From a virus, in IMG/VR virus record IMGVR_UViG_3300022751_000014, positions 1 through 37,523 of that record: a stretch of 37,523 nucleotides of DNA, one strand, 5' to 3'. The notes below the pieces were generated by a model that was given only the letters and a program-made list of their open reading frames with translations, searched no databases and had not been told where the DNA came from. Positions 3,825 to 36,207 of the stretch are shown in pieces. A program made the position numbers and the translations under genes. Position 1 is the stretch's first letter. Each line of letters opens with the position of its first letter.

Positions 3825-3849
3825 GTGCTATAATAACCCTAATACGGGC
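3825..3849 (+). promoter_or_regulatory. Tagged late promoter 1 (fibre genes)
   Basis: An extended -10, TGC TATAAT at 3826-3834, is followed after 7 nt by AATACGGGC ending at 3849, and the ATG lies at 3861. No good -35 is seen. ATACGGGC sits where transcription should start, so it is probably the first eight bases of the mRNA. The same arrangement occurs before 7704, 11817, 32299 and 36223. Confidence 0.8.
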
Positions 3850-3860
3850 ATAGGTTGATA

Positions 3861-5687
3861 ATGAAACCACAAATACCTGACGATCCTATTTCTCGAATAC
3901 AACAAAAAAGACAGGCACAGGCAGGTTTTGACGTTGATCAGTCTCGGACTGATTCTATTATCGACGCTGTGAAATCATCTGGCGGAGAGACCAAAGACGG
4001 TATTACTTCAGCTATGCATGACATACTTATGGCGACTCTCATTGGGAAAGACCCGAAGATAGCCGAAGTTGCGAAGAACCTTGCTGGGCTACTTGAGTCT
4101 ATTGATAAAGCATCAAAGAACGTCAAAAGCAGTAGCCTAGAGGTGTTACCAAGTGTTTACAAGTCGCTTGTCGACGCTATTGCTGAACTACCAGGGAAGC
4201 TTGCGGAAAGCGACAACACAGAAGTTCTTATACCTTATCTTGAGGGTATCAATAAGACGATTCAGGGCAAAAATACAAACCCTGTCGTCACGGTTAACAA
4301 CAAAGATGTGAAGCTCGACGCTAAAGAGGTTGTTGATGCGATTAAAGATCTTAAAAAAGTTCTGCAGAATGTTACTAAGCCTGAGAAAGAAGGTAAAGAA
4401 GCTGATCTGACGCCACTTGTTGATGCAGTGAACAAGGTGACGTTTGCTGTAAACCATCAGCAGTTCCCAGTATCAAATTACGTTCTTCCTTTCAGGGATG
4501 ATTCAGGCGCTGCGACACAAATAACAGCGGTTACTAGTTCAACCGATCCGACTAAGACAGGGCTCATCGCCCTCAATCCTGACGGTTCCAACATATCTGG
4601 CGGCGGTGGAGGTGGAGGAACGCAGTACGCGGAAGGAGTCACAACATCCCCGGCTACTGGTACTGTCTCCCTCGGGCGCTACAGTACGTCTGCGCCAGTG
4701 CTTACTAATGGACAGTTGAATGCTCCCCAGCTTGATGTAAATGGTAATACGAAGATTGTACCTGCGTCAGCAACACTTCCTGTGCAGCTTAACGCATCAC
4801 AGACTACAACAACCGGTTCAATCACCACGTCAACAACAACTATTACTGTGACCGATCTCGCAGGCGTTGGAGCAGTCACAGTAACCATTTTCGGAACGTA
4901 CGCAGGCGTTAACGTCACTTTTGAACAAAGTCTCGATGGCAGCACTTGGGCTAATGCAACGGCGGTTCCTACCACACTGGTGAACCCTACAGCTATCTCA
5001 GGTGCAACAGGTGTACTTACAACTAATAGCACTAATATATGGAATGTATCACCTCTTCTGGGGGTCGCTCAGTTCCGCGTTCGAGCAACTGCATTTGGTT
5101 CTGGTTCAGCTAGTGTTCGAATTGAACCGTCTGCTCAGTTTGTTCAACCTAACGTACTTGTGACTAATCCAACGGCTGCAAACCTAAACGCTACTGTTAC
5201 AGGTACTGTTACTGCTAACATCGGTACAGGTGGGACAGGTGCGACTTCTCTTGGTAAGGCAGAAGATGCTGTCCACGCTTCAGGAGATACTGGAGTTGCT
5301 GTGTGGGGTGTTGTCAACACAGGCGCAGCGACGAGCTTTGCTGCCAATGGAGATTATAGCCCACACGCTGTAGATGTACAGGGACGAAGGTATGTTACTA
5401 TGAAGGCTCCGGCCGCCACCTTGTCCAACGTCTCAGGTTCTGCATCGTCAGTCACTGTTTTAGCAGCTAATACAGGCCGTCTAGGCGCGACAGTCACAAA
5501 TGACTCATCAGCCCTGCTCTACCTTAAATTGGGTGCTACAGCCTCTACAACTAGTTACACAGTTGTGTTGGCGGGTAACGCATCTGCCCCCTTTGCATAT
5601 TATGAGTTACCGTTTGGGTACACTGGCATCATCGACGGCATTTGGAGCAGCGCAACTGGAACCGCCAGGGTGACGGAGTTAAGTTAG
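3861..5687 (+). CDS. Virion structural protein, helical N terminus and beta-rich C terminus
   Basis: A 608-residue protein. The ATG at 3861 is used rather than TTG 3855 because AGG lies just upstream within the tagged leader. Residues 1 to about 200 are charged and helical with many Lys/Glu, like an attachment stalk. A run of glycines near residue 250 marks a flexible hinge. The rest is Thr/Ser/Ala/Val-rich and beta-like, with repeated short segments such as TVTGTVTAN. The C-terminal domain ends with FAYYELPFGYTG, a pattern seen in phage baseplate and fibre proteins. It is the first gene after the glycosylation cassette and its many Ser/Thr residues make it a candidate acceptor. Exact virion location is inferred. 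Confidence 0.7.
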   Translation: MKPQIPDDPISRIQQKRQAQAGFDVDQSRTDSIIDAVKSSGGETKDGITSAMHDILMATLIGKDPKIAEVAKNLAGLLESIDKASKNVKSSSLEVLPSVYKSLVDAIAELPGKLAESDNTEVLIPYLEGINKTIQGKNTNPVVTVNNKDVKLDAKEVVDAIKDLKKVLQNVTKPEKEGKEADLTPLVDAVNKVTFAVNHQQFPVSNYVLPFRDDSGAATQITAVTSSTDPTKTGLIALNPDGSNISGGGGGGGTQYAEGVTTSPATGTVSLGRYSTSAPVLTNGQLNAPQLDVNGNTKIVPASATLPVQLNASQTTTTGSITTSTTTITVTDLAGVGAVTVTIFGTYAGVNVTFEQSLDGSTWANATAVPTTLVNPTAISGATGVLTTNSTNIWNVSPLLGVAQFRVRATAFGSGSASVRIEPSAQFVQPNVLVTNPTAANLNATVTGTVTANIGTGGTGATSLGKAEDAVHASGDTGVAVWGVVNTGAATSFAANGDYSPHAVDVQGRRYVTMKAPAATLSNVSGSASSVTVLAANTGRLGATVTNDSSALLYLKLGATASTTSYTVVLAGNASAPFAYYELPFGYTGIIDGIWSSATGTARVTELS

Positions 5688-5688
5688 C

Positions 5689-7626
5689 ATGCCTTTATTT
5701 AACCAAGGCGTCCAATCAGTATCTAAAACTGGTAGCGCCAAATTGAATGGTGATGTTACACTCACGGGTGGAACAAATGTTACTCTTACACAATCAGGAC
5801 AAGATATCTCTATTGCAGCAACAGGTGGATCAGGTTCAGGGACAGTGAATACAGGAACAGCAAATAAGTTGGCCTTCTATGCTACAAACGGAACGACAGT
5901 CAGTCCTACGACAGACATTAGTATATCTTCTTCTCAGCTGACACTTGGGGTTGCTTCGGGTGTGAGCCAAGGCGCACTTATCATGGCTGGTGGTAGTAGT
6001 GGCACAACAACACTTATACCCACGTCTGTAGCGACGGGCACCCTAACACTTCCATCTGCGACAGACACCCTAGTTGGACGCGCTACAACAGATACTCTTA
6101 CGAATAAGACACTTACATCTCCTATACTGGTAACACCTGCACTTGGAACACCAGCTTCTGGCGTGCTCACGAATGCCACTGGGCTATCGGTACCTGGAGG
6201 GCTATCTGCAACCGGTACACCAAGCAGTACTACATTCCTAAGAGGTGATGGCACGTGGGCTACCCCCTCTGGGTCTGGAGATATGGTACTTGCAGGTATA
6301 CAAACAGTCACAGGTGCTAAAACCTATAACGTTGGTACACTTATAACTGCTGGTTCTACCTCGGGTACTACTACTCTTAACGCATCTGCCATCGCTGGAA
6401 CGACAACTCTCGTACTTCCTGCCGTTAATGATACGCTGGTAGGGAAAGCTACAACCGATGCACTTACTAATAAAGACCTTACCTCTGGTACGAACACCTT
6501 CCCGACCTTTAACCAAAGTACGACAGGTTCGGCAGCAACCCTCACAACCGCAAGAACTATAGGTACTCTTACGGGCGATGTCACTACAGCTGGTTCAACA
6601 TTTAACGGCTCGGCTAATAACACAAATGCGACTGTCCTTGCAACGGTCAACGCAAACGTTGGTTCATTTGGCTCTGCGACACAGGTAATGACTCAAACAG
6701 TCAACGCTAAAGGTCTTACAACTGCTGCGGCAAACGTTACTATTACTCCAGCAGTAGGATCTATAACTGGACTGGGAACCGGAGTGGCGGCGTTCCTTGC
6801 AACTCCTTCTAGTGCAAACCTTGCAACAGCAGTAACTGACGAAACTGGTTCAGGTGCGCTTGTATTAGCTACATCGCCTACTCTTGTAACACCAAGATTT
6901 GGGAGTGCTGGTTCTATAACTGACGCCAACGGAAATGAGCTTATCTTATTCCCAACAACAGTAGCCTCAGCAGTTAACGAAATCACAATAGCCAATGCAG
7001 CTACTCTCAATGCACCTGAAATTCGTCTCACTGGAGGAGATACAAATGTCAGTTTGAACATTGTACCGAAAGGGGCTGGGTCAGTACTCGTCAATAGTAT
7101 CTTGGTTGCAACTGCGAGTAATACACTCTCACTATCTAATAAGGATTTAACTGCAACCACCAACACATTTCCTAATGGGTTTGCTGTTCAAGTTGCAGCA
7201 ACTAACTTCACAGCTTCGACAACTGGTACCACAATAATGCCGTTCGATGATACGATTCCACAGATCACAGAGGGGTTCGAAGTGATGACCCAGGCAATTA
7301 CACCTAAATCAACAAGCAACATTCTTACGATTGAAGCAACCGTCTTCTGTGGTGGTTCAGTTCCAGCATCTATGACAGCTGCGCTATTCCAGGATTCTAC
7401 AGCCAATGCACTCGCAGTTTCATCAACGTATATGTTGACAGCTACGGGACCTATTAATATTAAGTTACAGTACTCGATGACGGCTGGTACTACCTCGTCA
7501 ACGACCTTTAGGATACGCTTGGGAATGGATGTAGTTGGCACCACAACATTCAATGGTGTTGGTGGTACACGTAGATTTGGTGGAATCTCCGCGTCGAATA
7601 TAAAGATTACTGAACACAAGGCTTGA
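5689..7626 (+). CDS. Tail fibre protein with internal repeats
   Basis: A 645-residue Ser/Thr/Gly-rich protein that begins one base after the preceding stop (TAG C ATG), so it is probably translated by reinitiation. Imperfect repeats with the core TLVGKATTDALTNKDLTS occur near residues 125, 245 and 480. Other phage fibre shafts carry TNKTLTSP-type repeats like these. A FLRGDGTWATP segment near residue 185 is a common fibre trimerisation-type motif. The C-terminal 150 residues form a compact, less repetitive domain that probably binds the host receptor. No chaperone or peptidase domain is recognised. Confidence 0.82.
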   Translation: MPLFNQGVQSVSKTGSAKLNGDVTLTGGTNVTLTQSGQDISIAATGGSGSGTVNTGTANKLAFYATNGTTVSPTTDISISSSQLTLGVASGVSQGALIMAGGSSGTTTLIPTSVATGTLTLPSATDTLVGRATTDTLTNKTLTSPILVTPALGTPASGVLTNATGLSVPGGLSATGTPSSTTFLRGDGTWATPSGSGDMVLAGIQTVTGAKTYNVGTLITAGSTSGTTTLNASAIAGTTTLVLPAVNDTLVGKATTDALTNKDLTSGTNTFPTFNQSTTGSAATLTTARTIGTLTGDVTTAGSTFNGSANNTNATVLATVNANVGSFGSATQVMTQTVNAKGLTTAAANVTITPAVGSITGLGTGVAAFLATPSSANLATAVTDETGSGALVLATSPTLVTPRFGSAGSITDANGNELILFPTTVASAVNEITIANAATLNAPEIRLTGGDTNVSLNIVPKGAGSVLVNSILVATASNTLSLSNKDLTATTNTFPNGFAVQVAATNFTASTTGTTIMPFDDTIPQITEGFEVMTQAITPKSTSNILTIEATVFCGGSVPASMTAALFQDSTANALAVSSTYMLTATGPINIKLQYSMTAGTTSSTTFRIRLGMDVVGTTTFNGVGGTRRFGGISASNIKITEHKA

Positions 7627-7666
7627 TATATTTTCTAGTGAATAGTGTTATCCAATGTGTACCATA

Positions 7667-7690
7667 TGTTATAATTAAATCAATACGGGC
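7667..7690 (+). promoter_or_regulatory. Tagged late promoter 2 (adaptor gene)
   Basis: TGT TATAAT ends at 7675, then 7 nt, then ATACGGGC at 7683-7690. The gene starts 21 nt after the first base of the tag, and CGGAGTG inside the leader can serve as ribosome-binding site. Confidence 0.8.
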
Positions 7691-7703
7691 ATCGGAGTGA
7701 CGA

Positions 7704-8375
7704 ATGGCCTATACTGTAGGTGATCTAACCACTAGAGTCCAGCAGCGTATACGAGATACTGGTTACTCTAGTACAGAGATAATTGGATACTTGAACGACG
7801 CCCAAAACGATATTTTTAACGAGTATCGTCTTCCTTTTGTCCAAAGCATACAGCCGTATACGTTGGTTGCTGGAGAATCAGACATAACAAATGGCGTGGG
7901 ACTACCTACCGACTATGTACAAGCGGTAGATATTACATTGACAAGTGGTGGAACACAATCAGTGCTTCCTTACGTTGACGTAACTACCATTGACAACTTC
8001 TATCCGAATCCAGAAGACTCAGTACTCCACCCCCCAGGTATACCTATCTACTGGTACTTCTACGAAGAAACCATAAGGGTTTTCCCTGCTCCGGTAACTG
8101 GACTGACTGTTTCACTACGTTACTATAAGAAGCCAACCGAGCTGTCAGCAGATGGGGATATTCCACAGGTTCCAAGTGAGTTTGCAGAAGCGCTTATCTT
8201 AGGTGCTGCATACAGGGTGTTACAAGTAAAAGACAACTACGATCAGGCGGCTATTCTCCAAAATAAGTTTGACGAGATACTGCAGAAACTCGTGGTTAAA
8301 TATAGTCAGCCACAAGTAGGCACAGCTATGCGGATGCGAATCAACAGGATCGTTACTAGAAAACAGAGTTTTTAA
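7704..8375 (+). CDS. Head-tail adaptor-like protein
   Basis: A 223-residue protein whose N terminus (TTRVQQRIRDTGYSSTEII) and middle (LPTDYVQAVDI, GIPIYWYFYEETIRVFPAP, LRYYKKP) match the pattern of podovirus adaptor proteins. These sit under the portal and recruit the nozzle, as T7 gp11 and P22 gp4 do. It ends with a helical EALILGAAYRVLQ segment and a basic tail. It lies directly upstream of the nozzle-like protein, the order expected for adaptor and nozzle, and has its own tagged promoter. Family assignment is by pattern, not by search. Confidence 0.7.
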   Translation: MAYTVGDLTTRVQQRIRDTGYSSTEIIGYLNDAQNDIFNEYRLPFVQSIQPYTLVAGESDITNGVGLPTDYVQAVDITLTSGGTQSVLPYVDVTTIDNFYPNPEDSVLHPPGIPIYWYFYEETIRVFPAPVTGLTVSLRYYKKPTELSADGDIPQVPSEFAEALILGAAYRVLQVKDNYDQAAILQNKFDEILQKLVVKYSQPQVGTAMRMRINRIVTRKQSF

Positions 8376-8387
8376 GGAGACTACCCT

Positions 8388-10657: not shown

Positions 10658-10658
10658 C

Positions 10659-11780: not shown

Positions 11781-11804
11781 TGTTATAATCTAGTTAATAC
11801 GGGC
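11781..11804 (+). promoter_or_regulatory. Tagged late promoter 3 (ejection proteins)
   Basis: TGT TATAAT at 11784-11789, 7 nt, then ATACGGGC from 11797; the gene starts 20 nt after the first tag base. A weak TTGTAT lies 18 nt upstream of the -10 as possible -35. Confidence 0.8.
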
Positions 11805-12551: not shown

Positions 12552-14488
12552 TGGTCGCCGTACCTGGGTTCGATAGACCGCTAGGTTCTCAGTCTTCTGA
12601 TTTGTTTACTTCTCGTGCACCTATTAGTCAGACTAAAAAGAAAAAGGATTTCTGGACTGATCAAATTTCTACTGGTGGTGGCATTGGTGGAGCTTTGGGC
12701 GGTGCAGCAACAGGAGCTGCAATTGGTTCTATTGTACCTGGTATCGGTACGGTTATTGGTGGTCTCGCTGGTGGTGTTCTTGGTGGAGCGTTAGGATCGG
12801 GTGGAGGTGAACTTGTAGAAAACACAATCACGGGAGCTGATCCTTGGGAAAACGTGGGTAAAGAGGCATTACTAGGTGGAATCTTTAGTGCGCCTCCTAT
12901 ACGAGCTGCTAGGGGGCTTGTAGGGGCTGCTAAGGGTATTGGAAGTGGAGCTGCTAAGGAAGGTTTTGAACAAGCCTTTGTGGGTACTGCAAAGAATGCC
13001 ACTAGAAATACAGCACAGCGAACTACTAATAACTTACTAGGTGAAGCCTGGGGTATTAGGTCTGGTGCTAAAGTTGGTGGTAAAGCGATTACACCTCAAA
13101 AGGCTAACGAACTTCAAAACTTTGTATTAAAGGACATTGGTGTTCCTAAGACTTCAAATGCAGACATGGTGTTTGAACGTGCTACTAACTATCAAAATGA
13201 AGTCGGTAATGCCATTGGTTCTCTCGTTAAGACGGGTAAACTTGAGCCAAATGCAGTTAATACTCTTTCAAAGTCATTATCTGATCGTTTCTCTAAAACT
13301 ATCGGAGTAGATGCTGGGAATAACCAAGTAGCTAATGATATTATTGGTCTCGTTAATTCTGCAAAATCTCCCGAAGACCTATGGAAAGTACGACGTCAAA
13401 TTGATGACACGCTTATTAACTTTAGCCGTAACCCTACATCTATTGTTCCAGGTGGAGAACAAATAGCTCGCACCGCCAGGGCTGAAATTAACAGTCTTCT
13501 TAATAAAGTGACTCCTGGGCTTAAAGACCTTAATACTAAATACTCTCGTGCCCTTGATGTGTCTGATCTCGTAGCTGGAGCATCTAAGAATCCTAAAGGG
13601 TTTAAATTACCAGGCTTCCAGCAAACGGTTGGTGGTGGTACTGCTCAACGTATAAAGGCTGGTGCTGGTGCTGTGACAAGCAAGCTACCTGGTGGCGGAG
13701 GTAGTGGTGTACCTACTATTCCTGGTTCAGTTAGCAATAGTACTGGGGGACTGGGTGGGTTGATCGCTCGGCAAACTATCGGCCAGAATACACTGGGAAA
13801 TCCAGGTTCTAAGCAGCCTACTCTCGACGACGCATTGATGCAACAAGGTAGTGGTCAACTGATGCAGACTAACCCAGATGGTAGTTATGGAGCTGCGCCT
13901 TTTGGTTCTACTAGTGACACATTTATGTCGAATGATCCATCAGCTATGACTCCTCCTCAGCAAGACCCTTATCCACGAGAAAATCTACTTTACGATATAC
14001 AACGTGATCCACAGAACGCAGATCAATACATTGCCTATTACCAACAAGTACAGGAAGTATTCGGACGACCCGAACAAAAGTCTCTTAGTTCTACGGCTAC
14101 TAAGGATGTTAGTAACGCTAATGTTGGTCTTCAAGCACTCGATCAGATCGAAGGAATTCTAGGTCAAGACCCTGGGGTTCAACAGCGTGGTGGTATTAGC
14201 GGTACATTTAACCCATTTGGTATCGTATCAGGTGCTCTGGGAACTGGTGAATACGAGAATGCTCGGGCACAAGCACGTGACGTTATCGCTCGTATTCGTA
14301 CTGGTGCAGCTCTTACAAATGATGAGGCAAGGGCATTCGATAAATTCCTTCCACAACCAGGAGATGATGCGAATACAGTTAAATCTAAGCTATCCTACCT
14401 CCGTAACCAGTTCCAAGCTATATCCAGTCAACAAGGTGGCGGGTCTCTCGAGGACGCATTACTAACACAACAAAGAGGAGCCTACTAA
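12551..14488 (+). CDS. Large glycine-rich ejection protein with a membrane-active N terminus
   Basis: A 645-residue protein overlapping the preceding stop (TAATG). Residues about 38-95 are a strongly hydrophobic glycine-zipper region (GALGGAATGAAIGSIVPGIG repeated in kind). Such stretches insert in membranes and are usual in phage ejection and pore-forming proteins. The middle is helical and charged. A Gly/Ser-rich linker lies near residues 375-415, and the C-terminal 130 residues are helical. With the preceding gene it probably forms the DNA-injection channel. No lytic enzyme motif was found in it. Confidence 0.68.
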   Translation: MVAVPGFDRPLGSQSSDLFTSRAPISQTKKKKDFWTDQISTGGGIGGALGGAATGAAIGSIVPGIGTVIGGLAGGVLGGALGSGGGELVENTITGADPWENVGKEALLGGIFSAPPIRAARGLVGAAKGIGSGAAKEGFEQAFVGTAKNATRNTAQRTTNNLLGEAWGIRSGAKVGGKAITPQKANELQNFVLKDIGVPKTSNADMVFERATNYQNEVGNAIGSLVKTGKLEPNAVNTLSKSLSDRFSKTIGVDAGNNQVANDIIGLVNSAKSPEDLWKVRRQIDDTLINFSRNPTSIVPGGEQIARTARAEINSLLNKVTPGLKDLNTKYSRALDVSDLVAGASKNPKGFKLPGFQQTVGGGTAQRIKAGAGAVTSKLPGGGGSGVPTIPGSVSNSTGGLGGLIARQTIGQNTLGNPGSKQPTLDDALMQQGSGQLMQTNPDGSYGAAPFGSTSDTFMSNDPSAMTPPQQDPYPRENLLYDIQRDPQNADQYIAYYQQVQEVFGRPEQKSLSSTATKDVSNANVGLQALDQIEGILGQDPGVQQRGGISGTFNPFGIVSGALGTGEYENARAQARDVIARIRTGAALTNDEARAFDKFLPQPGDDANTVKSKLSYLRNQFQAISSQQGGGSLEDALLTQQRGAY

Positions 14489-18505: not shown

Positions 18506-18543
18506 TATATTACCACGTTAAAGGCAGAAATGAAGAAGGCACT
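18506..18543 (+). repeat. 38-bp gene-start repeat, copy 1
   Basis: Identical to 19734-19771. It holds the AAAGG ribosome-binding site, ATG and first four codons (M K K A) of the 18530 gene plus about 24 bases of leader. Confidence 0.95.
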
Positions 18544-19012: not shown

Positions 19013-19223
19013 TGATCAGTATATTGCTGGTGTATACATTGTCGGTGTAATTGCCGGAATTATAGGCTGGATCTATGCCATTGTTACTTGGGGCATTCTA
19101 GGGGTTATATTCGGATGGATATTTGGGTTATTGGTTGGGTTCATTTGTGGTATCCTATGGCCTCTTATAGTAGCTCTGGTGGTGTTGTCTGTTGTTTACT
19201 TAGTAGCTCTATCACGTAGTTGA
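19005..19223 (+). CDS. Small multi-helix membrane protein
   Basis: A 72-residue, almost entirely hydrophobic protein with two or three membrane helices (GVIAGIIGWIYAIVTWGILG, FGWIFGLLVGFICGIL, PLIVALVVLSVVYLVAL) and many glycines. It overlaps the preceding gene, so both membrane proteins are made together from the divergent promoter. A second holin, antiholin or superinfection-exclusion protein are all possible. Its last 28 bases overlap a possible minus-strand gene. Confidence 0.65.
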   Translation: MSSDQYIAGVYIVGVIAGIIGWIYAIVTWGILGVIFGWIFGLLVGFICGILWPLIVALVVLSVVYLVALSRS

Positions 19224-19336
19224 ATAGGGCTATGTCGTAAAATATATGTTGTGCGACCACTGTAACAGGGGTGATTGTTTACTTGGAATACATTTGTTAG
19301 TACATACACCACATATAGCGTGTTAAAAGTTGCCAT
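19196..19336 (-). CDS. Possible small minus-strand protein
   Basis: A 46-residue minus-strand frame with a strong ribosome-binding site (AGGGGG, five bases before ATG 19336). The sequence is mixed in composition (MATFNTLYVVYVLTNVF at the start, basic end) with no recognisable domain. It follows another minus-strand frame at 19356-19514 by 19 bases and could share its transcript. The overlap with the plus-strand membrane gene and the short length keep this tentative. Confidence 0.35.
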   Translation of the reverse strand: MATFNTLYVVYVLTNVFQVNNHPCYSGRTTYILRHSPIQLRDRATK

Positions 19337-19355
19337 ACAGACCCCCTTCTCGCAG

Positions 19356-19514
19356 CTAGAGACCAGGAACAAACACGAACCTTCTACTAGTGTTATTTAA
19401 GACCTTTCCTCTTCCCAAGTACTCAGTAATAACAGCCGAACATTTGATGACATCGCATAGACCAGGTTGACGTTTAGGGGTCAATAAATCAGAGCCTGGG
19501 TTTAACGTCACCAT
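19356..19514 (-). CDS. Possible small minus-strand protein with paired cysteines
   Basis: A 52-residue minus-strand frame from ATG 19514. Its composition is protein-like (GLCDVIKCSAVITEYLGRG, NNTSRRFVFVPGL) and it has a CxxxxC pair, but there is no clear Shine-Dalgarno sequence. A 14-codon GTG frame with a protein-like start (VKVIIEFDGDV) overlaps the beginning in another frame. This may mean a leader peptide or a frameshifted gene. The region 19224-19593 holds nothing convincing on the plus strand. Confidence 0.4.
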   Translation of the reverse strand: MVTLNPGSDLLTPKRQPGLCDVIKCSAVITEYLGRGKVLNNTSRRFVFVPGL

Positions 19515-19593
19515 CAAATTCAATTATTACTTTCACTTCGTTTTTCGTCCTATAAGGGAGGGGCTACGGCAATAACAGGGGTTGTAAAAGTAT

Positions 19594-19621
19594 TTGCAAT
19601 TTGGTGTCTATCTGATAGAAT
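19594..19621 (+). promoter_or_regulatory. Promoter of a short plus-strand RNA
   Basis: TTGCAA, 16-nt spacer, TAGAAT (19616-19621) preceded by TGA (extended -10). A terminator begins only 25 nt after the -10. TTGCAA is self-complementary and might serve a divergent minus-strand promoter too, but no good minus -10 is seen at the right distance. Confidence 0.6.
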
Positions 19622-19626
19622 AAAAG

Positions 19627-19672
19627 AAGACAAAAACATAGCCTTCCCCGCACGCAAATGCGGGGTTCTTTA
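19627..19672 (+). ncRNA. Candidate short terminated RNA (about 45 nt)
   Basis: A promoter ending at 19621 is followed directly by the terminator stem CCCCGCA / TGCGGGG (19646-19652 with 19659-19665, loop CGCAAA) and TTCTTTAT. No open frame fits between. The 5' arm AGACAAAAACA..GCCTT is repeated with two changes at 19707-19724. This may be a small regulatory or decoy RNA, or simply an attenuated leader. Confidence 0.5.
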
Positions 19673-19733
19673 TATCCCAAATTACCCCCTAAAACTGCTT
19701 GTGTTAGACAAAAACACTGCCTTAGGTTATGTT

Positions 19734-19771
19734 TATATTACCACGTTAAAGGCAGAAATGAAGAAGGCACT
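19734..19771 (+). repeat. 38-bp gene-start repeat, copy 2
   Basis: Perfect copy of 18506-18543, including the AAAGG site and ATG. Its own promoter candidate is TAGACA-17-TATGTT at 19705-19733. Confidence 0.95.
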
Positions 19772-19886
19772 TTTTCTAATTCTACAATCTCTTGTGGTGA
19801 GAGTTGTATATTCTACAATATTTGCAGCCCATATTAAAAGGTTGTATTATTGTATTTTACGAATATATAAAATACCCGCCAATTAA
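19758..19886 (+). CDS. Short protein from the duplicated gene start, possibly a remnant
   Basis: The second copy of the gene start runs into a different sequence and encodes 42 residues: MKKALFLILQSLVVRVVYSTIFAA then a basic, Tyr-rich end. The first half is hydrophobic like a signal anchor. After the shared 38 bp there is no similarity to the 18530 gene. It could be a decayed duplicate, a small membrane peptide, or a leader whose translation start is conserved for regulation. Confidence 0.4.
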   Translation: MKKALFLILQSLVVRVVYSTIFAAHIKRLYYCILRIYKIPAN

Positions 19887-19958
19887 GACGGGTTCATTTA
19901 CGGTCAACCTAGAATTTTCATAGGTCAACGACAGGTGCAAAAACTGGCTAACAGTTTC
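19866..19958 (-). ncRNA. Candidate minus-strand small RNA 1 (about 90 nt)
   Basis: A minus-strand extended -10, TGG TATAAT (complement of 19965-19973), is followed by AAACTG-TTAGC-CAGTTT, a six-bp hairpin. The 3' end is a terminator-like hairpin ACCCGTC / GGCGGGT with tail ATTTTATATATT (complement of 19874-19893). One pair of that stem is a G-U wobble only in minus-strand RNA and a mismatch on the plus strand. GTTGACC occurs twice 22 bases apart inside. No plausible open frame was found. Confidence 0.5.
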
Positions 19959-19977
19959 GTCCGTATTATACCACTAA

Positions 19978-20120
19978 GTGAAAAGACCCCCTAGACAGAA
20001 TAGTGCTCCAATAGGGGTCTTACTAAGATTGCAGCAAACAATGAGAGAAGTTCGCTGCTATGATATACCAAAGGTACGTGCCAGACCGTGATCCAGTTCA
20101 ATACCGGTAATCTGGTAATG
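19978..20120 (-). ncRNA. Candidate minus-strand small RNA 2 (about 140 nt)
   Basis: It has the best promoter of the cluster: TTGCCA (complement of 20149-20154), 17-nt spacer, TATATT (complement of 20126-20131) with TGA before it. Predicted hairpins are a CCAGA / TCTGG stem reinforced by CCG / CGG, then GCAGCGAAC / GTTTGCTGC (9 bp with one G-U that pairs only on this strand). The 3' end is a terminator AAGACCCC / GGGGTCTT followed by TTTC, with a long 23-nt loop. No open frame with a start signal was found. It resembles an independently transcribed structured RNA. Confidence 0.6.
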
Positions 20121-20157
20121 CTTAGAATATATCACGTTATATAGGTTATGGCAACAT

Positions 20158-20215
20158 AAAACAAAGTCCGTACTGGACGGACTAAGGGCTGCGTCCACAA
20201 CATGGTAGTACAGTG
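20158..20215 (-). ncRNA. Candidate minus-strand small RNA 3 (about 50 nt)
   Basis: A compact terminator AGTCCGT-CCAGT-ACGGACT followed by TTGTTTTA (complement of 20165-20183) ends a short minus-strand stretch. The best start is an extended -10 TGC TATGCT or TGC TATAGG near 20215-20230 without a good -35, so it may instead be the 3' end of read-through from RNA 4. Confidence 0.4.
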
Positions 20216-20227
20216 CCTATAGCATAG

Positions 20228-20318
20228 CACAAAAGAAAACGCCCCCGTGGAAGAATTGATACAACAAGTGTAAGATTCAGGGGCGTTTGGCTATATCTTA
20301 CCACCTATAAGGTAATAA
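20228..20318 (-). ncRNA. Candidate minus-strand small RNA 4 (about 90 nt)
   Basis: Promoter candidate on the minus strand: TAGCAA (complement of 20348-20353), 17 nt, TATAAG (complement of 20325-20330). The first hairpin is CTTATTACC / GGTGGTAAG with a 5-nt loop; its two wobble pairs form only in minus-strand RNA. The 3' hairpin is AAACGCCCC / GGGGCGTTT with an unusually long 34-nt loop, followed by TCTTTT. No open frame of note was found. Confidence 0.5.
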
Positions 20319-20368
20319 GGCAAGCTTATACAACACACAAGGAATACTTGCTAGTTCTCTAAAACGTA

Positions 20369-20397
20369 TTGCAAAACCACTACCACTGTGCTATTAT
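20369..20397 (+). promoter_or_regulatory. Early promoter E1
   Basis: TTGCAA, 17-nt spacer, TATTAT with TGC before it. The spacer contains ACCACTACCAC and the leader GGAAGGATTGAATAC ends at the ATG. Both the spacer and the leader are shared with promoters at 24003 and 25859, so they are probably a common regulatory signature. Confidence 0.85.
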
Positions 20398-20430
20398 AGA
20401 GGTAAATCAATTTTAGGAAGGATTGAATAC

Positions 20431-21033
20431 ATGAGCGAAACAGTTAAAGTGCCGCAGCAAAAAGTTATGCAGGCAATTCAAAACGTACAGCAACAAGCTG
20501 AATATATTAAGCGTGAATCAGACGGACAAGTAGGACAAGGCAAGTTTAAGTATGCCAACCTCACAAGCACATGGGAAGCCGTTAAACAGCTATTAAAGGA
20601 AAACAACCTAGTCGTCTACCAAACCCCTACAAACGGCTCTAGTGGTCTTCAAGGCAATATGTTTAAGACAACCATCTTTCATATTGAAAGCGGTGAGTCC
20701 GTCACGGAAGAAATGCCAATGGTACTCACACGGCAAGACCCACAGGCGCTGGGAGCCGCAATCACATTTTATCGACGTTACATGCTTACCTCGATGCTAG
20801 GACTCATCCCAGACGATGACAACGACGCTAGAGAGCAACGACTTGCCACAGCACAACAGAAACTACAGATTGTTGGCGCGGTTAAACTCACTTTTGACAA
20901 TAAGGGCGAAGAATGGCGACCGGAACAAATCAACAAGACCATTGAAGATATTATCGGTAAGCACCCGAGTCAGATTCGCGAAGAAGAAGCTGACAATGTT
21001 GTCAACTTGATTAGGGCTTATAAGGCAGAGTAA
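20431..21033 (+). CDS. erf: ERF-family single-strand annealing protein
   Basis: A 200-residue protein with GGAAGG upstream. The core is typical of the ERF recombinase superfamily: KYANLTSTWEAVKQLLKENNLVVYQ, FHIESGESVTEE, then the diagnostic DPQALGAAITFYRRYMLTSMLGLIPDDDNDA near residues 105-137. ERF proteins anneal complementary single strands and support phage recombination, genome circularisation and repair. The last 60 residues are more variable, as usual. It is the first gene of the early operon. No exonuclease partner is recognised nearby. Confidence 0.92.
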   Translation: MSETVKVPQQKVMQAIQNVQQQAEYIKRESDGQVGQGKFKYANLTSTWEAVKQLLKENNLVVYQTPTNGSSGLQGNMFKTTIFHIESGESVTEEMPMVLTRQDPQALGAAITFYRRYMLTSMLGLIPDDDNDAREQRLATAQQKLQIVGAVKLTFDNKGEEWRPEQINKTIEDIIGKHPSQIREEEADNVVNLIRAYKAE

Positions 21034-30449: not shown

Positions 30450-30475
30450 ACAATCAGAAGTGTAAGTGTTACATT
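30447..30475 (+). promoter_or_regulatory. Promoter of the terminase genes, apparently leaderless
   Basis: TAGACA, 17-nt spacer, TACATT with TGT before it. The terS ATG at 30485 lies nine bases after the -10, so the mRNA would start about at the ATG. No Shine-Dalgarno sequence precedes the gene. Confidence 0.65.
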
Positions 30476-30484
30476 ATATACATC

Positions 30485-30928: not shown

Positions 30929-30993
30929 TTAAGTGCCAGGAATCACGGGCTGGTATCAACATAAAGCAAAAACATTACTCATGGATGATATAA

Positions 30994-32169
30994 ATGGCAT
31001 TTACTGAAACAACAGCATTGCATAAGATCCTAAAGATGAAAGCACGCAATCGTGTCGTCCAAGGCGGCGCACGGGCTGGTAAATCGATCGCTATACTTCT
31101 TATCTTGATAGACATCGCTCAATCACAGAAGGGTAAGACAATATCTGTTGTATCTGAGACTGTCCCTCACTTGAAGCGTGGTGTAATCCGTGACTTCTTG
31201 AGTATCCTAAAAGAACAAAACTACTACAAAGACGATCGTTGGAATAGAACAGATTTTATTTACACATTCGAGACAGGTTCGTTTATAGAGTTCTTCTCGG
31301 CAGACTCACCGGACAAAGTGCGTGGACCAGCTCGTAACATCCTATTCATCAACGAGTGCAACAATGTATCATTTGATGTGTACACACAGCTTGCTATTCG
31401 TACGACTGACTTTATCTACCTGGACTACAACCCGGTAAGTGAGTTTTGGGTACACGAGGAAGTTATCACTAAGGATAACCACGACTTTGACATTCTTACT
31501 TACAAGGATAACGAAGCGCTATCACCAAATATCGTACAGGAGATTGAGTCACGAAGAGGCAATAAGGCGTTCTGGCGTGTCTTTGGTGAAGGCTTGATTG
31601 GTGAAGCTGAAGGTAAAGTATTTACAGGTTGGAAGCTAGACCTTGAGGAGATCCCACACGAAGCAAGGCTTGAGCGTTACGGACTAGACTTTGGGTACTC
31701 CAATGACCCATCGTGTCTTGTTGCAATTTACTATTATAACGGCGGGTATATCCTCGATGAAGTTTTATATCAGAAGGGATTGAGTAATAAGCAGATAGCT
31801 GACGTCATCCAGAACCAACCTGCAGCACTCGTGATGGCTGACAGCGCAGAGCCAAAGAGTATTGATGAGCTCAAGCTTTATGGTGTCAACGTCACAGCTA
31901 CGATTAAAGGACAGGGTTCTATTAACCAGGGTATCCAATATGTTCAGGACCAAAAGATAACACTCACTAAGCGGTCTATCAATGGGATTAGGGAATATCG
32001 TAACTACATGTGGGCTACTGATAAAGACGGAAAGATTCTCAACAAACCGATCGACATATGGAATCACTTCATGGACGCGACACGGTACGGCTTCGAAGGT
32101 CTAAGGGGCACGAGCCAAGTTATACACGCTTACAAACCAGCAGATATGTTACGAGCAAAACACAGGTAG
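30994..32169 (+). CDS. terL: Terminase large subunit (ATPase and nuclease)
   Basis: A 391-residue packaging motor. Walker A is GGARAGKS at residues 24-31 and Walker B is ILFINE ending at the catalytic Glu121. The C-terminal RNase H-like nuclease has the acidic positions LDFGYSNDPS, MADSAEPKSID and NHFMDATRYG. The length is slightly below the common 400-500. The pattern is that of the PBSX/Terminase_3 group often paired with headful-type packaging. The 65-bp gap after terS holds a 24-codon GTG frame that I do not consider real. Confidence 0.95.
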   Translation: MAFTETTALHKILKMKARNRVVQGGARAGKSIAILLILIDIAQSQKGKTISVVSETVPHLKRGVIRDFLSILKEQNYYKDDRWNRTDFIYTFETGSFIEFFSADSPDKVRGPARNILFINECNNVSFDVYTQLAIRTTDFIYLDYNPVSEFWVHEEVITKDNHDFDILTYKDNEALSPNIVQEIESRRGNKAFWRVFGEGLIGEAEGKVFTGWKLDLEEIPHEARLERYGLDFGYSNDPSCLVAIYYYNGGYILDEVLYQKGLSNKQIADVIQNQPAALVMADSAEPKSIDELKLYGVNVTATIKGQGSINQGIQYVQDQKITLTKRSINGIREYRNYMWATDKDGKILNKPIDIWNHFMDATRYGFEGLRGTSQVIHAYKPADMLRAKHR

Positions 32170-32179
32170 CTTTTATGAG

Positions 32180-32227
32180 CGCCGGGACTAAGTAATTAAA
32201 CACTCAGTATCCAAACCCGGCGTTCTT
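32180..32227 (+). terminator. Long-loop hairpin after terL, probable terminator
   Basis: Stem CGCCGGG / CCCGGCG (32180-32186 with 32216-32222) with a 29-nt loop, followed by TTCTTAAAAT. The T run is weak. Its position just before a tagged promoter supports a boundary between transcription units. Several hairpins in this phage share unusually long loops. Confidence 0.5.
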
Positions 32228-32257
32228 AAAATCTACTTGTACAAACTAAAGAGTTAA

Positions 32258-32285
32258 TGCTATAATTCCCTCATTGGATACGGGT
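32258..32285 (+). promoter_or_regulatory. Tagged late promoter 4 (portal gene)
   Basis: TGC TATAAT at 32261-32266; ATACGGGT starts after 11 nt at 32278, a longer gap than in the other copies. TTGTAC at 32237 is a possible -35 with an 18-nt spacer. ATG 32299 lies 21 nt after the first tag base. Confidence 0.75.
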
Positions 32286-32298
32286 GTTAGGACAACTA

Positions 32299-34143
32299 AT
32301 GCCTTCTAAGAGATCTCAAAAAGCGGTTCCTAAAGATGACGCACTCAATACAGTCGTCACCGCGTTTGACCGTTCTTGGGAGTATACAGAGGGTTCCTGG
32401 CACACCCGTTGGGATAACAACTACAAGCTCTATAACAACAACCGTGTAAAGCGTGGGTATCAAGGTATTACAGACACTTTTGTACCTATGTCTTTCTCTA
32501 CAGTTGAGACGCTTACATCAGGACTGTTCGGTGCTAAGCCTAAGTTCGACTACCTTCCTCCTCAAGAGAAACAAGATCAGAAAACGGATATTCTTAACTC
32601 AGCACTCGACTACTATTGGGATAAGGACCAATGGTCACTAAAGATCATTAATACCGGCCGCAATATGTTCAAGCTCGGGACAGCAATTGACTTCTTTATA
32701 TGGGACATAGACCATCCATGCCTTATTAACGTTCCCATTCGTGACTTCTTTATCTCACCTGAGTCGTCTGAACTATCAGAGGCAAACACACGCTACTGTG
32801 GACGCCGCTACCTTACCTCCAAAGAGGAGCTAGAAGGCTTTGAGATCGTTGACCTTGAAGGTGAGCCTGACGAAGACGGCAACTACCCACTAAAGAAGAA
32901 ATACAAGAACCTCGATAAGATCTCGTACGATGGTGGTACACAGGGTGAAAATACAGATAAAGAACAGAAGGACATGTTCTATGGATCTACTGTGTCTGAG
33001 GCTCATAAGACTCAAGTTGAGGTAATCGAATATTGGACCGTTGATCGAATCATCTCAGTCGCTAATAGGTCAGTTGTCATTGAGGACACAGAGAACTACT
33101 TTAAAGCCAAAGACAAGGCTAACGGATCTAAATACCCTAAGGGACTACTCCCGTTTGCCGACGCTCGTGACTACGTAGACGAATCACTTTTCTATGCGAA
33201 GGGAGAGATTGATATTATCGCCGACGAGCAAGAACTTCTCAACGATATCACTAACCAGAATATCGACTCTATTACCTACACGCTGAACCAGATGTACACG
33301 CTTGATCCTAAGTACGCTCACCTACTCAGTGAGATTGAGAACCTACCAGGTGCTGTCTATCCCGTTGAAGCAAACGCGCTTGTTCCTATCCCACAAAGGC
33401 CTATCCCACCAGATGCTTTCTTAGAACGTCAGAACATCAAGAACGAGATCCGTGAAACTACAGCGTCTAGCGAGATTGTAAAAGGTGTCGGAGAGCAAGG
33501 TGCTGGTAAGTCTACAGCTACTGAGATTAACGCTCAAGTAGCAGGTGCAGGCCAACGCTTCTCTCTTAAAGTGACACAGATTGAAAACGGTTACTTCTAT
33601 CGCATGGCAAAGATCATCTTTAGAATGATTCAGCTATACGTTACAGAGCCTATGATGGTTCGTATTGTTGGTAAAGATGGTGCTCGTTGGGAAGAGTTTG
33701 ACCCATCTGAGTTCCAGGGTGAATACGAGCCACGTGTACAACTTGAAGCAACTATCAATAACGAGAAACAGAATCAAGCTAACGACGCTAAAGAGCTGCT
33801 TGGTGCTTTTCTCGGAGACCCAGACGTTAACCAACAGGAGCTAAAAAAGCTCGTGTTACAACGCTCATTTGACCTTGATCCTGACGAAGTTGAAGCACTT
33901 ATGGCCCCTATGGTACAAGGCGGAATGGGAGCACCTATTGATCCAGCTATGGCCAACCTGCCGCCTGAGCTAGCTGGTATGGGTGGTGGCATGCCTCCTG
34001 AGATGATGGCTCCTCCCCCAGATCCTAGTGCTGAGATCAAGGCTGCAAAAGAACAACAACAAATGGAACAGTCTGCTGAGCAGCATGAAATTGACATGGC
34101 GATGAAGGTTGCTAAACTACGTCAGATGCAAGGAGGTGTATAA
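32299..34143 (+). CDS. Portal protein
   Basis: A 614-residue protein from ATG 32299, with TTAGGACA upstream; an upstream GTG at 32284 lies within the promoter tag. It matches podovirus-type portals: an N-terminal WHTRWDNNYKLYNNNR, TFVPMSFSTVETLTSGLFGAKPKFDYLPP, IPIRDFF-type, LYFAKGEID-type and NDITNQNIDSI. The clip and wing part contains TTASSEIVKGVGEQG.GKSTATEIN. The last 80 residues are Met/Pro/Gly-rich followed by a Gln-rich helix, as in P22-like barrels. The dodecameric portal is the DNA gate and nucleates head assembly. Confidence 0.92.
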   Translation: MPSKRSQKAVPKDDALNTVVTAFDRSWEYTEGSWHTRWDNNYKLYNNNRVKRGYQGITDTFVPMSFSTVETLTSGLFGAKPKFDYLPPQEKQDQKTDILNSALDYYWDKDQWSLKIINTGRNMFKLGTAIDFFIWDIDHPCLINVPIRDFFISPESSELSEANTRYCGRRYLTSKEELEGFEIVDLEGEPDEDGNYPLKKKYKNLDKISYDGGTQGENTDKEQKDMFYGSTVSEAHKTQVEVIEYWTVDRIISVANRSVVIEDTENYFKAKDKANGSKYPKGLLPFADARDYVDESLFYAKGEIDIIADEQELLNDITNQNIDSITYTLNQMYTLDPKYAHLLSEIENLPGAVYPVEANALVPIPQRPIPPDAFLERQNIKNEIRETTASSEIVKGVGEQGAGKSTATEINAQVAGAGQRFSLKVTQIENGYFYRMAKIIFRMIQLYVTEPMMVRIVGKDGARWEEFDPSEFQGEYEPRVQLEATINNEKQNQANDAKELLGAFLGDPDVNQQELKKLVLQRSFDLDPDEVEALMAPMVQGGMGAPIDPAMANLPPELAGMGGGMPPEMMAPPPDPSAEIKAAKEQQQMEQSAEQHEIDMAMKVAKLRQMQGGV

Positions 34144-34364
34144 TGAAGACCCCTACTAATCTTGTTAACGCTTACCAACAGTTCTTTTTAAAGAGCGAAG
34201 ATGGTCAGTTCTTCCTGGAGACGATGGAGAAGATTATTTCAGACCAACATGAACTTGCAGAGAAGGATGGAGATAAGGCAAGAGACCATACACAGAGGGC
34301 TAAGGGCGCACGCTTAGTTCAGGAACATATCCAAAGCGTGCTAGGAGGTGTAAAGAAAACCTGA
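34143..34364 (+). CDS. Small protein between portal and scaffold
   Basis: A 73-residue protein overlapping the portal stop (TAATG). It is charged and helical (LVNAYQQFFLKSEDGQFFLETMEKIISDQHELAEKDGD) and ends in a Lys-rich tail. Small helical proteins in this position are common between portal and scaffold genes and may aid assembly. No family is recognised. Confidence 0.62.
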   Translation: MKTPTNLVNAYQQFFLKSEDGQFFLETMEKIISDQHELAEKDGDKARDHTQRAKGARLVQEHIQSVLGGVKKT

Positions 34365-34375
34365 TCGTTATTCGG

Positions 34376-34437
34376 AATAGTAGCTGGAATATTATTTAAT
34401 ACTAGCCCGTATTAAACCAGCTACTATTCGGGCTAGT
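34376..34437 (+). promoter_or_regulatory. Intergenic pseudoknot carrying the antisense of the late tag
   Basis: Stem A is AATAGTAGCTGG / CCAGCTACTATT (34376-34387 with 34417-34428). Stem B is ACTAGCCCG / CGGGCTAGT (34401-34409 with 34429-34437). The 5' strand of B lies in the loop of A and its 3' strand abuts A, so both can form together as an H-type pseudoknot with 21 stacked pairs. A small hairpin TTAATAC / GTATTAA competes inside the loop. GCCCGTATTA (34405-34414) is the exact complement of the late tag TAATACGGGC. Confidence 0.75.
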
Positions 34438-34454
34438 GATAATGAGGTACAACA

Positions 34455-35237
34455 ATGGACGATAAAACCACAACTGATGCTCCTGTTGAACCTGGCGAGG
34501 TACAGACCATTAACGGAATCGCAATCGACGATCAAGGAATGGCAATCTCAGAACCAGACGAAACAACGGAATCTAATTCAGCGGTTGAAACAACCAGTGA
34601 AACCGAGCAAGAAGCTGTAGAAGCGAATCAAGAGCCATCTGAAGAAGATGAACAACTCACCAAGTTCGCTGAAACAAAGGGACTAACGCTCGATAGCGAC
34701 AACGCTAGAAAAGCAGCTAAAATGGCTATGAACGCCGAGAAGCTGATGCACAGTAAAGCTAACAAAGCGAGCGAACTAGAGCGAACTATGGGGCAAATGT
34801 CCGATGATTCTGCTTCTCAGGTAGCTCAAGCAACAGGACAAGACCCAGAAGTTCTAAAACGACTACAGCGTATGGAAGTCAAAGACTCTATTCGTGAGTT
34901 TTGGGACGGTAACCCTGACGCAAAGCAGTACGAGTCAGAGATGGCAAAGATTGCAGTTGAGTCAGGACTCTACGGGTCACCAGAAGCTATTTTAAAAGCA
35001 AGCTATGCTATGGCAGTCGCTGGCAATACAGATACTATCAAGTCACAGGGGAAACGAGAAGGTCTCGAATCCTTAGCCCACAAACAACAAGCAGCCGTCC
35101 CACGTGGTAATGCCGTTACATCTGGCGCGTCCAGTGAAGCAATTACACCACAAAACGTTGACTATCTAGTTGGTAAGAATGACATGTCATGGTACATGTC
35201 TCACCGCGATGAAATCAACAAGGTGATGGCTTCATAA
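34455..35237 (+). CDS. Scaffolding protein
   Basis: A 260-residue protein placed directly before the coat gene. Residues 1-75 are very acidic and Thr/Glu/Asp-rich. The middle is helical (NARKAAKMAMNAEKLMHSKANKASELERTM) and the C terminus is a small domain ending in MSWYMSHRDEINKVMAS. Acidic start, helical middle and helix-loop-helix end are typical of phage scaffolds that guide coat assembly and leave before maturation. Its leader contains the pseudoknot at 34376-34437. GAGGTAC is the best ribosome-binding site. Confidence 0.8.
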   Translation: MDDKTTTDAPVEPGEVQTINGIAIDDQGMAISEPDETTESNSAVETTSETEQEAVEANQEPSEEDEQLTKFAETKGLTLDSDNARKAAKMAMNAEKLMHSKANKASELERTMGQMSDDSASQVAQATGQDPEVLKRLQRMEVKDSIREFWDGNPDAKQYESEMAKIAVESGLYGSPEAILKASYAMAVAGNTDTIKSQGKREGLESLAHKQQAAVPRGNAVTSGASSEAITPQNVDYLVGKNDMSWYMSHRDEINKVMAS

Positions 35238-35260
35238 TTTAATATATTGGAGAACACATT

Positions 35261-36142
35261 ATGGTATCAGGACTTTACGGTTCAGGTGCGGTAAACATTG
35301 GCGCAACAGCTGCTAACGTTTTCCGACCTAACATTTGGTCAAAGGAAGTATTGATGTTTGTTAAATCAAACCTCGTACTCCTCCCACTTATCAAACACTA
35401 CGACGCAGACGTTAAAGCTGGTGGTCAGACACTTGAGATCCCTAACGTTTCAGCTATTACAGCTAACCTTAAGAATCAGAATACTGTCGTCACGCTTAAC
35501 TACAACACAGAAACAAAAACAACGATCGTCTTAAACAAGCACTACGAAAGCTCATTCATCGTTGAAGACCTCGTTAAGATTCAATCGGTCTACGACCTTC
35601 GTAGCGACTACACAATGGCCGCTGCGTATGCGATCTCAGAGAAGATTGACTCAGACCTAGCTACTAACATGACAAGTACATGGAAGACAGCTGGACAAGC
35701 TTACGGTACATACGGTACAGCATTGAATGATAACCTCATCCTAACTGTTAACCGTTACCTAAGTGAAAATAAAGCACCTCGTTCAGACCGAAGCCTTGTT
35801 GTTGCACCTAAGGGTGAAGCAGAAATGCTTGCGATTGACAAGTATGTTCGTTACGATGCCCTCGGTGTTGGTGGCGATGACAACTCAATCCGCAACGGTA
35901 AGATTGGTCGTATCTACGGCGCAGACGTGTACATGAGCCAAAACCTCGTATACCTCGACACTGCAACAGACGAATACAACCACCTATTCTTCCACAAAGA
36001 AGCATGGGCGATCGCACTGCAACAGACACCACGTACTCAGGCACAATACAAGCAAGAGTACCTTGGTTGGTTGGTTACAGTTGATGTACTTTATGGACAC
36101 AACGCCCTACGTACCAACTTTGGATTTGTTCTTAAGAGTTAA
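35261..36142 (+). CDS. Major capsid protein
   Basis: A 293-residue protein with TTGGAG upstream. It has features of the HK97-fold coat group in short-tailed phages: an N-terminal ATAANVFRPNIWSKEVLMFVKSNLV, then LEIPNVSAI, and YNTETKTTIVLNKHYESSFIVEDLVKIQ. It continues with ISEKIDSDLATNM, RSLVVAPKGEAEML and a C-terminal GLF-type YLGWLVTVDVLYGHNALRTNFGFVL. The size is in the usual range for this fold. A terminator follows closely, as expected for the most highly expressed gene. Confidence 0.9.
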   Translation: MVSGLYGSGAVNIGATAANVFRPNIWSKEVLMFVKSNLVLLPLIKHYDADVKAGGQTLEIPNVSAITANLKNQNTVVTLNYNTETKTTIVLNKHYESSFIVEDLVKIQSVYDLRSDYTMAAAYAISEKIDSDLATNMTSTWKTAGQAYGTYGTALNDNLILTVNRYLSENKAPRSDRSLVVAPKGEAEMLAIDKYVRYDALGVGGDDNSIRNGKIGRIYGADVYMSQNLVYLDTATDEYNHLFFHKEAWAIALQQTPRTQAQYKQEYLGWLVTVDVLYGHNALRTNFGFVLKS

Positions 36143-36164
36143 TCTTACACAAACCAAACAATTT

Positions 36165-36187
36165 AGCTCCTTCGGGAGCTTTTTTGT
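36165..36187 (+). terminator. Rho-independent terminator of the capsid operon
   Basis: Stem AGCTCC, UUCG tetraloop, GGAGCT, then TTTTT. The T run is immediately followed by the extended -10 of the next promoter, so termination and initiation are back to back. Confidence 0.92.
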
Positions 36188-36207
36188 TATAATAGATGTA
36201 TACGGGC
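36185..36207 (+). promoter_or_regulatory. Tagged late promoter 5 (downstream of capsid)
   Basis: TGT TATAAT (36185-36193), 6 nt, ATACGGGC at 36200-36207; the gene starts at 36223 after TAGGAGA. This is the most compact copy of the arrangement. Confidence 0.82.

Follow-up and report, generated by a model that had tools for sequence, protein, structure and literature searches.

The stretch of DNA analysed here, which we call the window, comprises all 37,523 bases of the IMG/VR virus record IMGVR_UViG_3300022751_000014. Its first and last 127 bases are identical, and judged from its sequence it is probably a complete phage genome, terminally redundant or circular. PHROG matches mark a portal protein, the major capsid protein, a large terminase and two virion or tail proteins among its products, and Pfam matches a gp3-like packaging protein, ERF, NinG and an M15 peptidase; the products of the genes at 3861, 11817 and 36223 have no PHROG match. 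Five operons begin with the same unit, a promoter with an extended -10 box followed by a short leader tag, and the reverse complement of this tag, the anti-tag, lies in a pseudoknot ahead of the presumed scaffold gene (Table 1). Pairing between tag and anti-tag, which is well supported by the comparison of related genomes, is the subject of this report.

The original prediction, made from the letters of the window, had described a five-copy unit of extended -10 (TGnTATAAT), 6-11 nucleotides (nt), ATACGGG(C/T), 11-15 nt and ATG, and this unit is real. The pattern TATAAT-N(4,14)-ATACGG has five matches in the window, all on the + strand (3829, 7670, 11784, 32261 and 36188), whereas shuffles contain 0.08 on average and at most 2; since none of 100 shuffles reached five, a chance origin is rejected. 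TGn precedes all five -10 boxes, which are separated from the tag by 7, 7, 7, 11 and 6 nt, with a further 11, 13, 12, 13 and 15 nt between tag and ATG, such that the predicted shared 5′ stretch of 19-23 nt is found from tag start to ATG, and the copy at 32278 does end in T. The units head five transcription units (3861, 7704, 11817, the portal gene at 32299, and 36223), and their designation as late is borne out by the portal, the major capsid and the two virion or tail proteins among their genes. The sequences between -10 and tag are unrelated among the five copies, and therefore the units are not recent duplications. Neither a sixth extended -10 (36965) nor the promoter of the ERF gene (20389) is followed by a tag. 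The absence of a phage RNA polymerase or sigma factor was checked in part: none appeared in 20 protein scans (10 against PHROGs and 10 against Pfam, one protein being in both). At the last unit, a terminator-like hairpin (36165-36180) abuts the promoter at 36185, its T-run continuing into the extended -10.

The tag had also been placed at the transcription start, and here the prediction was not supported: no fixed spacing ties the tag to the start, as the distance from -10 to tag varies between 6 and 11 nt in the window, and between 6 and 9 nt at the orthologous post-capsid promoter in relatives. This variable distance likewise argues against a plain polymerase-escape signal, one of the three functions that had been considered. 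A mark on the mRNA for translation or stability, another of the three, is supported by what follows. The earlier interpretation thus was supported in its five shared late promoters with a conserved leader tag and not in a fixed placing of the tag at the start, and it missed the complementary partner.

Table 1. Positions of the features discussed, in window coordinates
Feature	Position	Strand	Remarks
Extended -10 TGCTATAAT	3826..3834	+	operon from 3861
Tag TAATACGGGC	3840..3849	+	10 contiguous Watson-Crick pairs possible with anti-tag; ATG at 3861
Extended -10 TGTTATAAT	7667..7675	+	operon from 7704 (virion/tail protein)
Tag AATACGGGC	7682..7690	+	9 pairs with anti-tag
Extended -10 TGTTATAAT	11781..11789	+	operon from 11817
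Tag TTAATACGGGC	11794..11804	+	11 pairs with anti-tag
Extended -10 TGCTATAAT	32258..32266	+	portal-scaffold-capsid operon; TGTACA 17 nt upstream
Portal tag GATACGGGT	32277..32285	+	odd final T gives a U.G wobble with anti-tag
Pseudoknot element	34366..34442	+	between an open reading frame of 73 amino acids and the scaffold gene
Stem S1, 5′ arm GAATAGTAGCTGG	34375..34387	+	in 8 relatives, both sides have changed in 8 of 13 pairs
Apical stem, 5′ half TTAATAC	34396..34402	+	
Stem S2, 5′ strand TACTAGCCC	34400..34408	+	pseudoknot stem
Anti-tag GCCCGTATTAA	34405..34415	+	GTATTAA is the apical stem 3′ half; GCCC lies in S2
Stem S1, 3′ arm CCAGCTACTATTC	34417..34429	+	
Stem S2, 3′ strand GGGCTAGTG	34430..34438	+	pseudoknot stem
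Presumed scaffold gene	34455..35237	+	first gene 3′ of the element; placed by its position ahead of the capsid gene; no PHROG match
Major capsid protein gene	35261..36142	+	PHROG 267, E 1.8e-41
Extended -10 TGTTATAAT	36185..36193	+	operon from 36223
Tag ATACGGGCTA	36200..36209	+	10 pairs with anti-tag

The exact reverse complement of the tag occurs at two places on the + strand, one inside a gene (29819) and one in the intergenic pseudoknot (34405), where it lies within an inverted repeat. The fold runs from stem S1 (13 base pairs, bp, in the window) through a loop strand with the anti-tag to the returning arm of S1, followed by GGGC, which pairs back to GCCC. The element is an H-type pseudoknot with strong compensatory changes: in an alignment of eight close relatives, which covers only the close clade of the window, both partners differ in 11 of 26 pairs, and the paired fraction of cells is 93.7%, as compared to 22-43% in a control with slid partners, and in pseudoknot stem S2 two of six pairs are changed on both sides with 100% of cells paired. 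Another alignment was excluded from these counts, because it misaligned S1 between subgroups. Relatives carry at the same junction a structure holding the complement of their own tag, and the pseudoknot score is higher than in any of six shuffles for 37 of 38 scanned loci, the exception being L035 (G and L numbers are our handles for related contigs and loci); L051 scores as a pseudoknot, yet it lacks the GGGC strand. Rfam has no family match at the element in the window (E up to 1) or in L008, and promoter-like sites near the element are not in excess (12, against a shuffle mean of 8.8). Further knot-like folds, built around a GCACC/GGTGC core and with the returning strands of S1 and S2 far apart, lie before the scaffold gene in L253-L258, L250, L252 and L260, and this type of element may reach beyond the tagged clade.

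In the relative G001, tagged leaders precede the homologues of the portal, post-capsid, 3861, 7704 and 11817 genes, and the same five leaders are tagged in G002, where the portal copy reads ATACGAGT. More distant relatives have the same promoters with a different tag, which is repeated inside each genome: ACATGGGC occurs three times in G004, G014 and G015 each contain three copies of AAGGCGGG, ACAGGGCAG-like tags are found in G013 and L066, and AACTGGGC-like ones in L026, L051 and others. Such concerted change within genomes requires a common partner. A scan of all IMG/VR for TATAATN5-12ATACGGGC matched at least 119 stretches, with one match in each of the 80 that were listed, and was useless as a finder. 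Two separate observations concern leader motifs: the distant relative L251 carries a motif close to AACAAARACTT after TATAAT at 4782, 5467, 9633 and 13670, perhaps a second, unrelated tag system, and G015 (L229/L230) has at position 12627, away from its tagged leaders, a 17-nt near-perfect anti-tag complement, GGCACAAGGCAGGGTGT.

The tag is no feature of host promoters. A motif search in host genomes, which had been proposed with the original prediction, gave 20 matches in 96 genomes from the phylum presumed to include the host (that of G021), not above a reversed-pattern control, and in the absence of enrichment in this set a mimicry of host promoters is rejected. Could the tag instead be an early-elongation signal, i.e., a site like ops or nut that loads an antitermination factor near the starts of late operons? 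RfaH/ops is named in PMC5449661. The location at operon heads would suit such a signal, and the G-rich tags (GGCGGG in G014/G015) bring the ops element to mind. The idea is nevertheless very unlikely, since it predicts neither a complementary strand in the scaffold leader nor the co-evolution of that strand with the tags, and the 20 protein scans, which did not cover every open reading frame, brought up no NusG-like or N-like protein.

As the tags vary across relatives, the anti-tag strand varies along with them, and on the whole the tags of a phage suit its own anti-tag better than foreign ones. Lineage-specific matches are seen in several relatives: ACATGGGC goes with GCCCATGT in G004, ACAAGGCGGG with CCTGCCTTGT in G013-G015/L066, CGGGCAGGG with CCCTGCCCG in L031, ACTGAGT with GCTCAGT in L024, and TTGGGC, present in two tags, with GCCCAA in L097. 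For the last two, single events can be named: in L024, GGG became GAG in the tag and CCC became CTC in the anti-tag, and in L097, a C-to-T change in both tags is accompanied by a G-to-A change in the anti-tag. A permutation test took all extended -10 leaders before open reading frames of at least 180 amino acids, irrespective of any tag, from 31 contigs; these have 21 distinct anti-tag strands, and qualifying leaders (56 distinct ones) were available for 18 of the strands. The leaders' complementarity to their own anti-tag sums to 279.0, against 222.9 (standard deviation, sd, 12.7) when anti-tags are permuted among the 18 groups, and not one of 20,000 permutations was as high. With three later lineages added (21 groups), all of 50,000 permutations stayed below the observed sum, and the same held after thinning to 13 clades (again 50,000 permutations). 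In lineages examined after the idea had been formed, the own anti-tag ranked first of 24 in L089 (10 bp) and second in both L091 (10 bp) and L087 (7 bp). Counted as 9-nt windows with at least eight Watson-Crick pairs, 36 of 76 leaders match their own anti-tag, compared to a mean of 8.4 for foreign and 1.3 for shuffled strands.

These results bear on the notion that the unit stands alone, either as duplicated copies of one promoter or as a polymerase-escape or stability mark without a partner. The units are real and multi-copy, as this account would have it, but the tag is constant next to unrelated intervening sequence, and where it changes, the copies of one genome change together and the anti-tag follows; the permutation test weakens the account further; of the alternatives weighed here, we consider it the least probable. 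The tag is not a self-standing promoter signal, and a reading in terms of transcription only is rejected.

Co-evolution by itself would also be expected of a DNA operator, because the sites of a regulator would likewise co-evolve within each genome. In this scenario, a phage regulator would bind AATACGGGC over the late promoter starts and would have one more site, in inverted orientation, in the scaffold leader; the overlap of the tag with the expected transcription start at five promoters is in line with it. However, it does not explain why the inverted copy always is a strand of a covarying pseudoknot, and two features of the leaders escape it as well. The first is that many deviations from complementarity are G.U only. 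In 9-nt windows with at least eight Watson-Crick pairs, 17 of 22 exceptions are G.U, as opposed to 20% in shuffled and 46% in foreign pairs (5 of 100 foreign draws were as high); at seven or more of 9 the count is 26 of 50 versus 25% (0 of 100 controls as high) and at six or more of 8 it is 20 of 60 versus 23% (1 of 100), while the excess over foreign pairs is not significant in 8-nt windows with at least seven pairs (23 of 100) or 10-nt windows with at least eight (22 of 100). The second is the spacing of the tag relative to the Shine-Dalgarno sequence. With tag bounds set by the pairing itself, the tag ends 3.0 nt (sd 1.7) before the Shine-Dalgarno sequence, in the 40 of 49 leaders where one was recognised, and begins 6.5 nt (sd 2.6; 49 leaders) after the -10, and by its smaller sd the spacing to the translation signal is somewhat tighter. 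Since deviations often are G.U wobbles, RNA-RNA pairing is favoured over a DNA operator, which we regard as unlikely.

A protein might also act at the RNA level. Here, an RNA-binding phage protein, e.g., the scaffold or capsid protein, would bind the pseudoknot and repress its own leader, and the tags would be single-stranded sites copying GGGC of the S2 3′ strand. Lineages that carry the knot but no tags (L098, L099) fit this proposal, and autogenous control has a phage precedent in T4 gene 32 (PMC535899). Against it, the tags match the anti-tag complement beyond S2 (AATAC, AACAT, AACAAG), where the S2 3′ strand differs, and L051, despite lacking that strand, retains a tag pairing of 10-11 bp; we therefore think it rather improbable.

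We favour, with some confidence, an explanation in which the tag is a base-pairing target in late mRNA leaders and its partner the anti-tag of the capsid-leader pseudoknot, the pairing setting the ratios of virion proteins. From the units, the covarying pseudoknot and the co-evolution with its wobbles, all computed here, we infer that the duplex forms in cells and acts on translation. The anti-tag strand would be held by two helices, the apical stem (UUAAUAC/GUAUUAA) and S2 (GCCC/GGGC), and the tag UUAAUACGGGC can be read as the two holding sequences fused in line; a tagged mRNA could thus invade the structure and form one duplex of 8-12 bp. For the portal mRNA this pairing might occur in cis, the two sites being 2.1 kilobases apart on the same molecule, whereas the other four late mRNAs would have to pair in trans. 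Because the duplex would end approximately 3 nt before the Shine-Dalgarno sequence, it is expected to dampen, in proportion to the scaffold/capsid mRNA, the translation of virion proteins made in few copies (portal, tail, internal, fibre), and it may simultaneously open the capsid leader. Repression of the tagged genes is also what the analogy to yifK favours, where pairing just upstream of the Shine-Dalgarno sequence represses (PMC3879156), and we hold a negative effect on them to be somewhat more probable than a positive one; the alternatives are activation, or a mechanism that acts mainly by opening the scaffold leader. A bolder version, which we advance tentatively, is a virion stoichiometry run by RNA only, in which the anti-tag exchanges strands with identical tags, each silenced message for a minor protein opens one capsid message, and a terminator plus promoter has replaced the system in some lineages.

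How such a replacement may look is seen at the scaffold junction. On a capsid tree, 37 rows have the element and seven have promoter elements at this junction, which requires three changes; these labels were assigned by eye, neither L017 nor L065 received one, and L076 was omitted because its length did not suffice for the tree. Most promoter-type junctions have a terminator-like hairpin ahead of the promoter, and in L063, the sister of L099, GGGCGAGCAATTTAA is kept and TTTACT...TATAAT stands in place of the 5′ half of the knot. This suggests that the element achieves at the RNA level what is achieved through transcription in other lineages, namely uncoupling capsid from portal output. In L053, L054, L057, L058, L061, L065 and L071, seven contigs of the promoter type, the portal gene starts few bases after the -10, such that its mRNA is near-leaderless and has no tag. 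The script misassigned scaffold starts in L032, L037, L044, L048, L055, L064 and L065.

Several observations weigh against the pairing model. Kinship inflates any permutation test, and the own anti-tag ranks poorly (7-12 of 18) in L069, L020, L035, L047 and L097, the last being weak at the portal, while the portal tags of G002, L008 and G004 have one or two mismatches. Complementarity alone is unspecific, as the window contains 23 contiguous helices scoring at least 16 on the + and 16 on the - strand; among these, only the ones at the five leaders come after an extended -10. Whether G.U pairs are in excess relative to foreign pairs hinges on the choice of window (0, 1, 5, 22 and 23 of 100 controls reach the observed value), and the predicted gain from the heteroduplex is only 4-7 kcal/mol (co-folding, with the knot ignored). 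Furthermore, L098 and L099 retain the pseudoknot with leaders that, where seen, are untagged or near-leaderless, L090 and L096 have the knot and untagged portal leaders, and in the distant L250 and L252-L258, which have look-alike knots (with other loops, by eye), no such tag was seen. Because knots exist in untagged lineages, the knot probably serves a function independent of tags, and tag pairing may have been added later onto an existing knot.

The host of this phage probably belongs to the Saccharibacteria or a related group, binning errors being possible. Relatives of its capsid protein were found in 71 IMG/VR loci and three GTDB contigs (66-71%); of the latter, L097 and L099 are in one Saccharibacteria metagenome-assembled genome and L098 is in another metagenome-assembled genome, and binned phage contigs can mislead. 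In a phage collection, a DNA-level search found no relative and a capsid search only distant ones, below 60%. Some observations lie apart from the pairing question. In L044, L048, L055, L064, L065 and L246, the capsid match begins only at query residue 22-24, and in L044, L048, L055 and L246 it is preceded by an open reading frame of about 150 amino acids ending in a shared intron-like sequence (...GGGGAA...AACCC...GGTATAATGA); an intron or inserted gene in these capsid genes is possible, and Rfam gave no match in the five loci searched (all except L246). Between the capsid and tail genes of the window, a run of open reading frames at 98-3820 looks glycosyltransferase-like by eye and includes a cytidylyltransferase-like protein (PF01467) at 2256-2690. 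Finally, an identical 38-nt direct repeat occurs at 18506-18543 and 19734-19771, the second copy lying, like a copied gene start, in a largely non-coding 1.2-kilobase stretch (19223-20431).

If the model is correct, a pairing code between late mRNAs would constitute a new post-transcriptional layer in uncultured phages of presumed Patescibacteria hosts, in which regulation is nearly unknown. The many natural pairs of tag and anti-tag could be useful as orthogonal riboregulators. In the bolder version, the lock and key of tag and anti-tag would also be a private code of each lineage that prevents cross-regulation among co-infecting relatives. We found no literature joining Patescibacteria, phage and pseudoknot, and searches on phage small RNAs, scaffold pseudoknots and long-range antisense returned nothing alike in titles and the beginnings of abstracts. 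A term search of the available part of PMC10746230 met no mention of promoters or untranslated regions.

A tailed phage makes hundreds of capsid proteins but about a dozen portal proteins from linked genes, a difference for which promoter strength and translation signals are the usual explanation. In the RNA phages MS2 and Q-beta, long-distance RNA pairing sets the ratio of virion proteins; there it occurs within one RNA genome, whereas here it would join separate transcripts of a double-stranded DNA phage. The leader of T4 gene 32 reportedly folds into an H-type pseudoknot whose binding by the protein results in autogenous repression, and the element described here resembles it in its H-type fold and in its place in a phage mRNA leader, ahead of the gene for a protein in heavy demand; no tags on other mRNAs are known from the T4 system.

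Pairing of phage RNAs with phage or host mRNAs is represented by OOP, aQ and PreS of lambda, which are cis-antisense or host-targeting (PMC12197685). The predicted pairing is of this kind, and a shared late-operon tag matched to the capsid mRNA is not described in the accessible part of that article. In enteric bacteria, the small RNA GcvB pairs just upstream of the Shine-Dalgarno sequence of yifK, and repression is proven (PMC3879156). As with such multi-target small RNAs, one strand is complementary to several leaders directly upstream of the Shine-Dalgarno sequence, but in the phage this strand lies within the leader pseudoknot of a protein-coding mRNA, and the putative targets are the phage's own late operons with their shared tag. 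Closest in its origin from an operon mRNA is SdhX, a processed, Hfq-dependent and trans-acting 3′ end of the sdh-suc transcript (PMC6393394). Here, too, a segment of one operon's mRNA is predicted to pair with other mRNAs; unlike SdhX, it is not a 3′ end, but an element between two genes, upstream of the scaffold gene.

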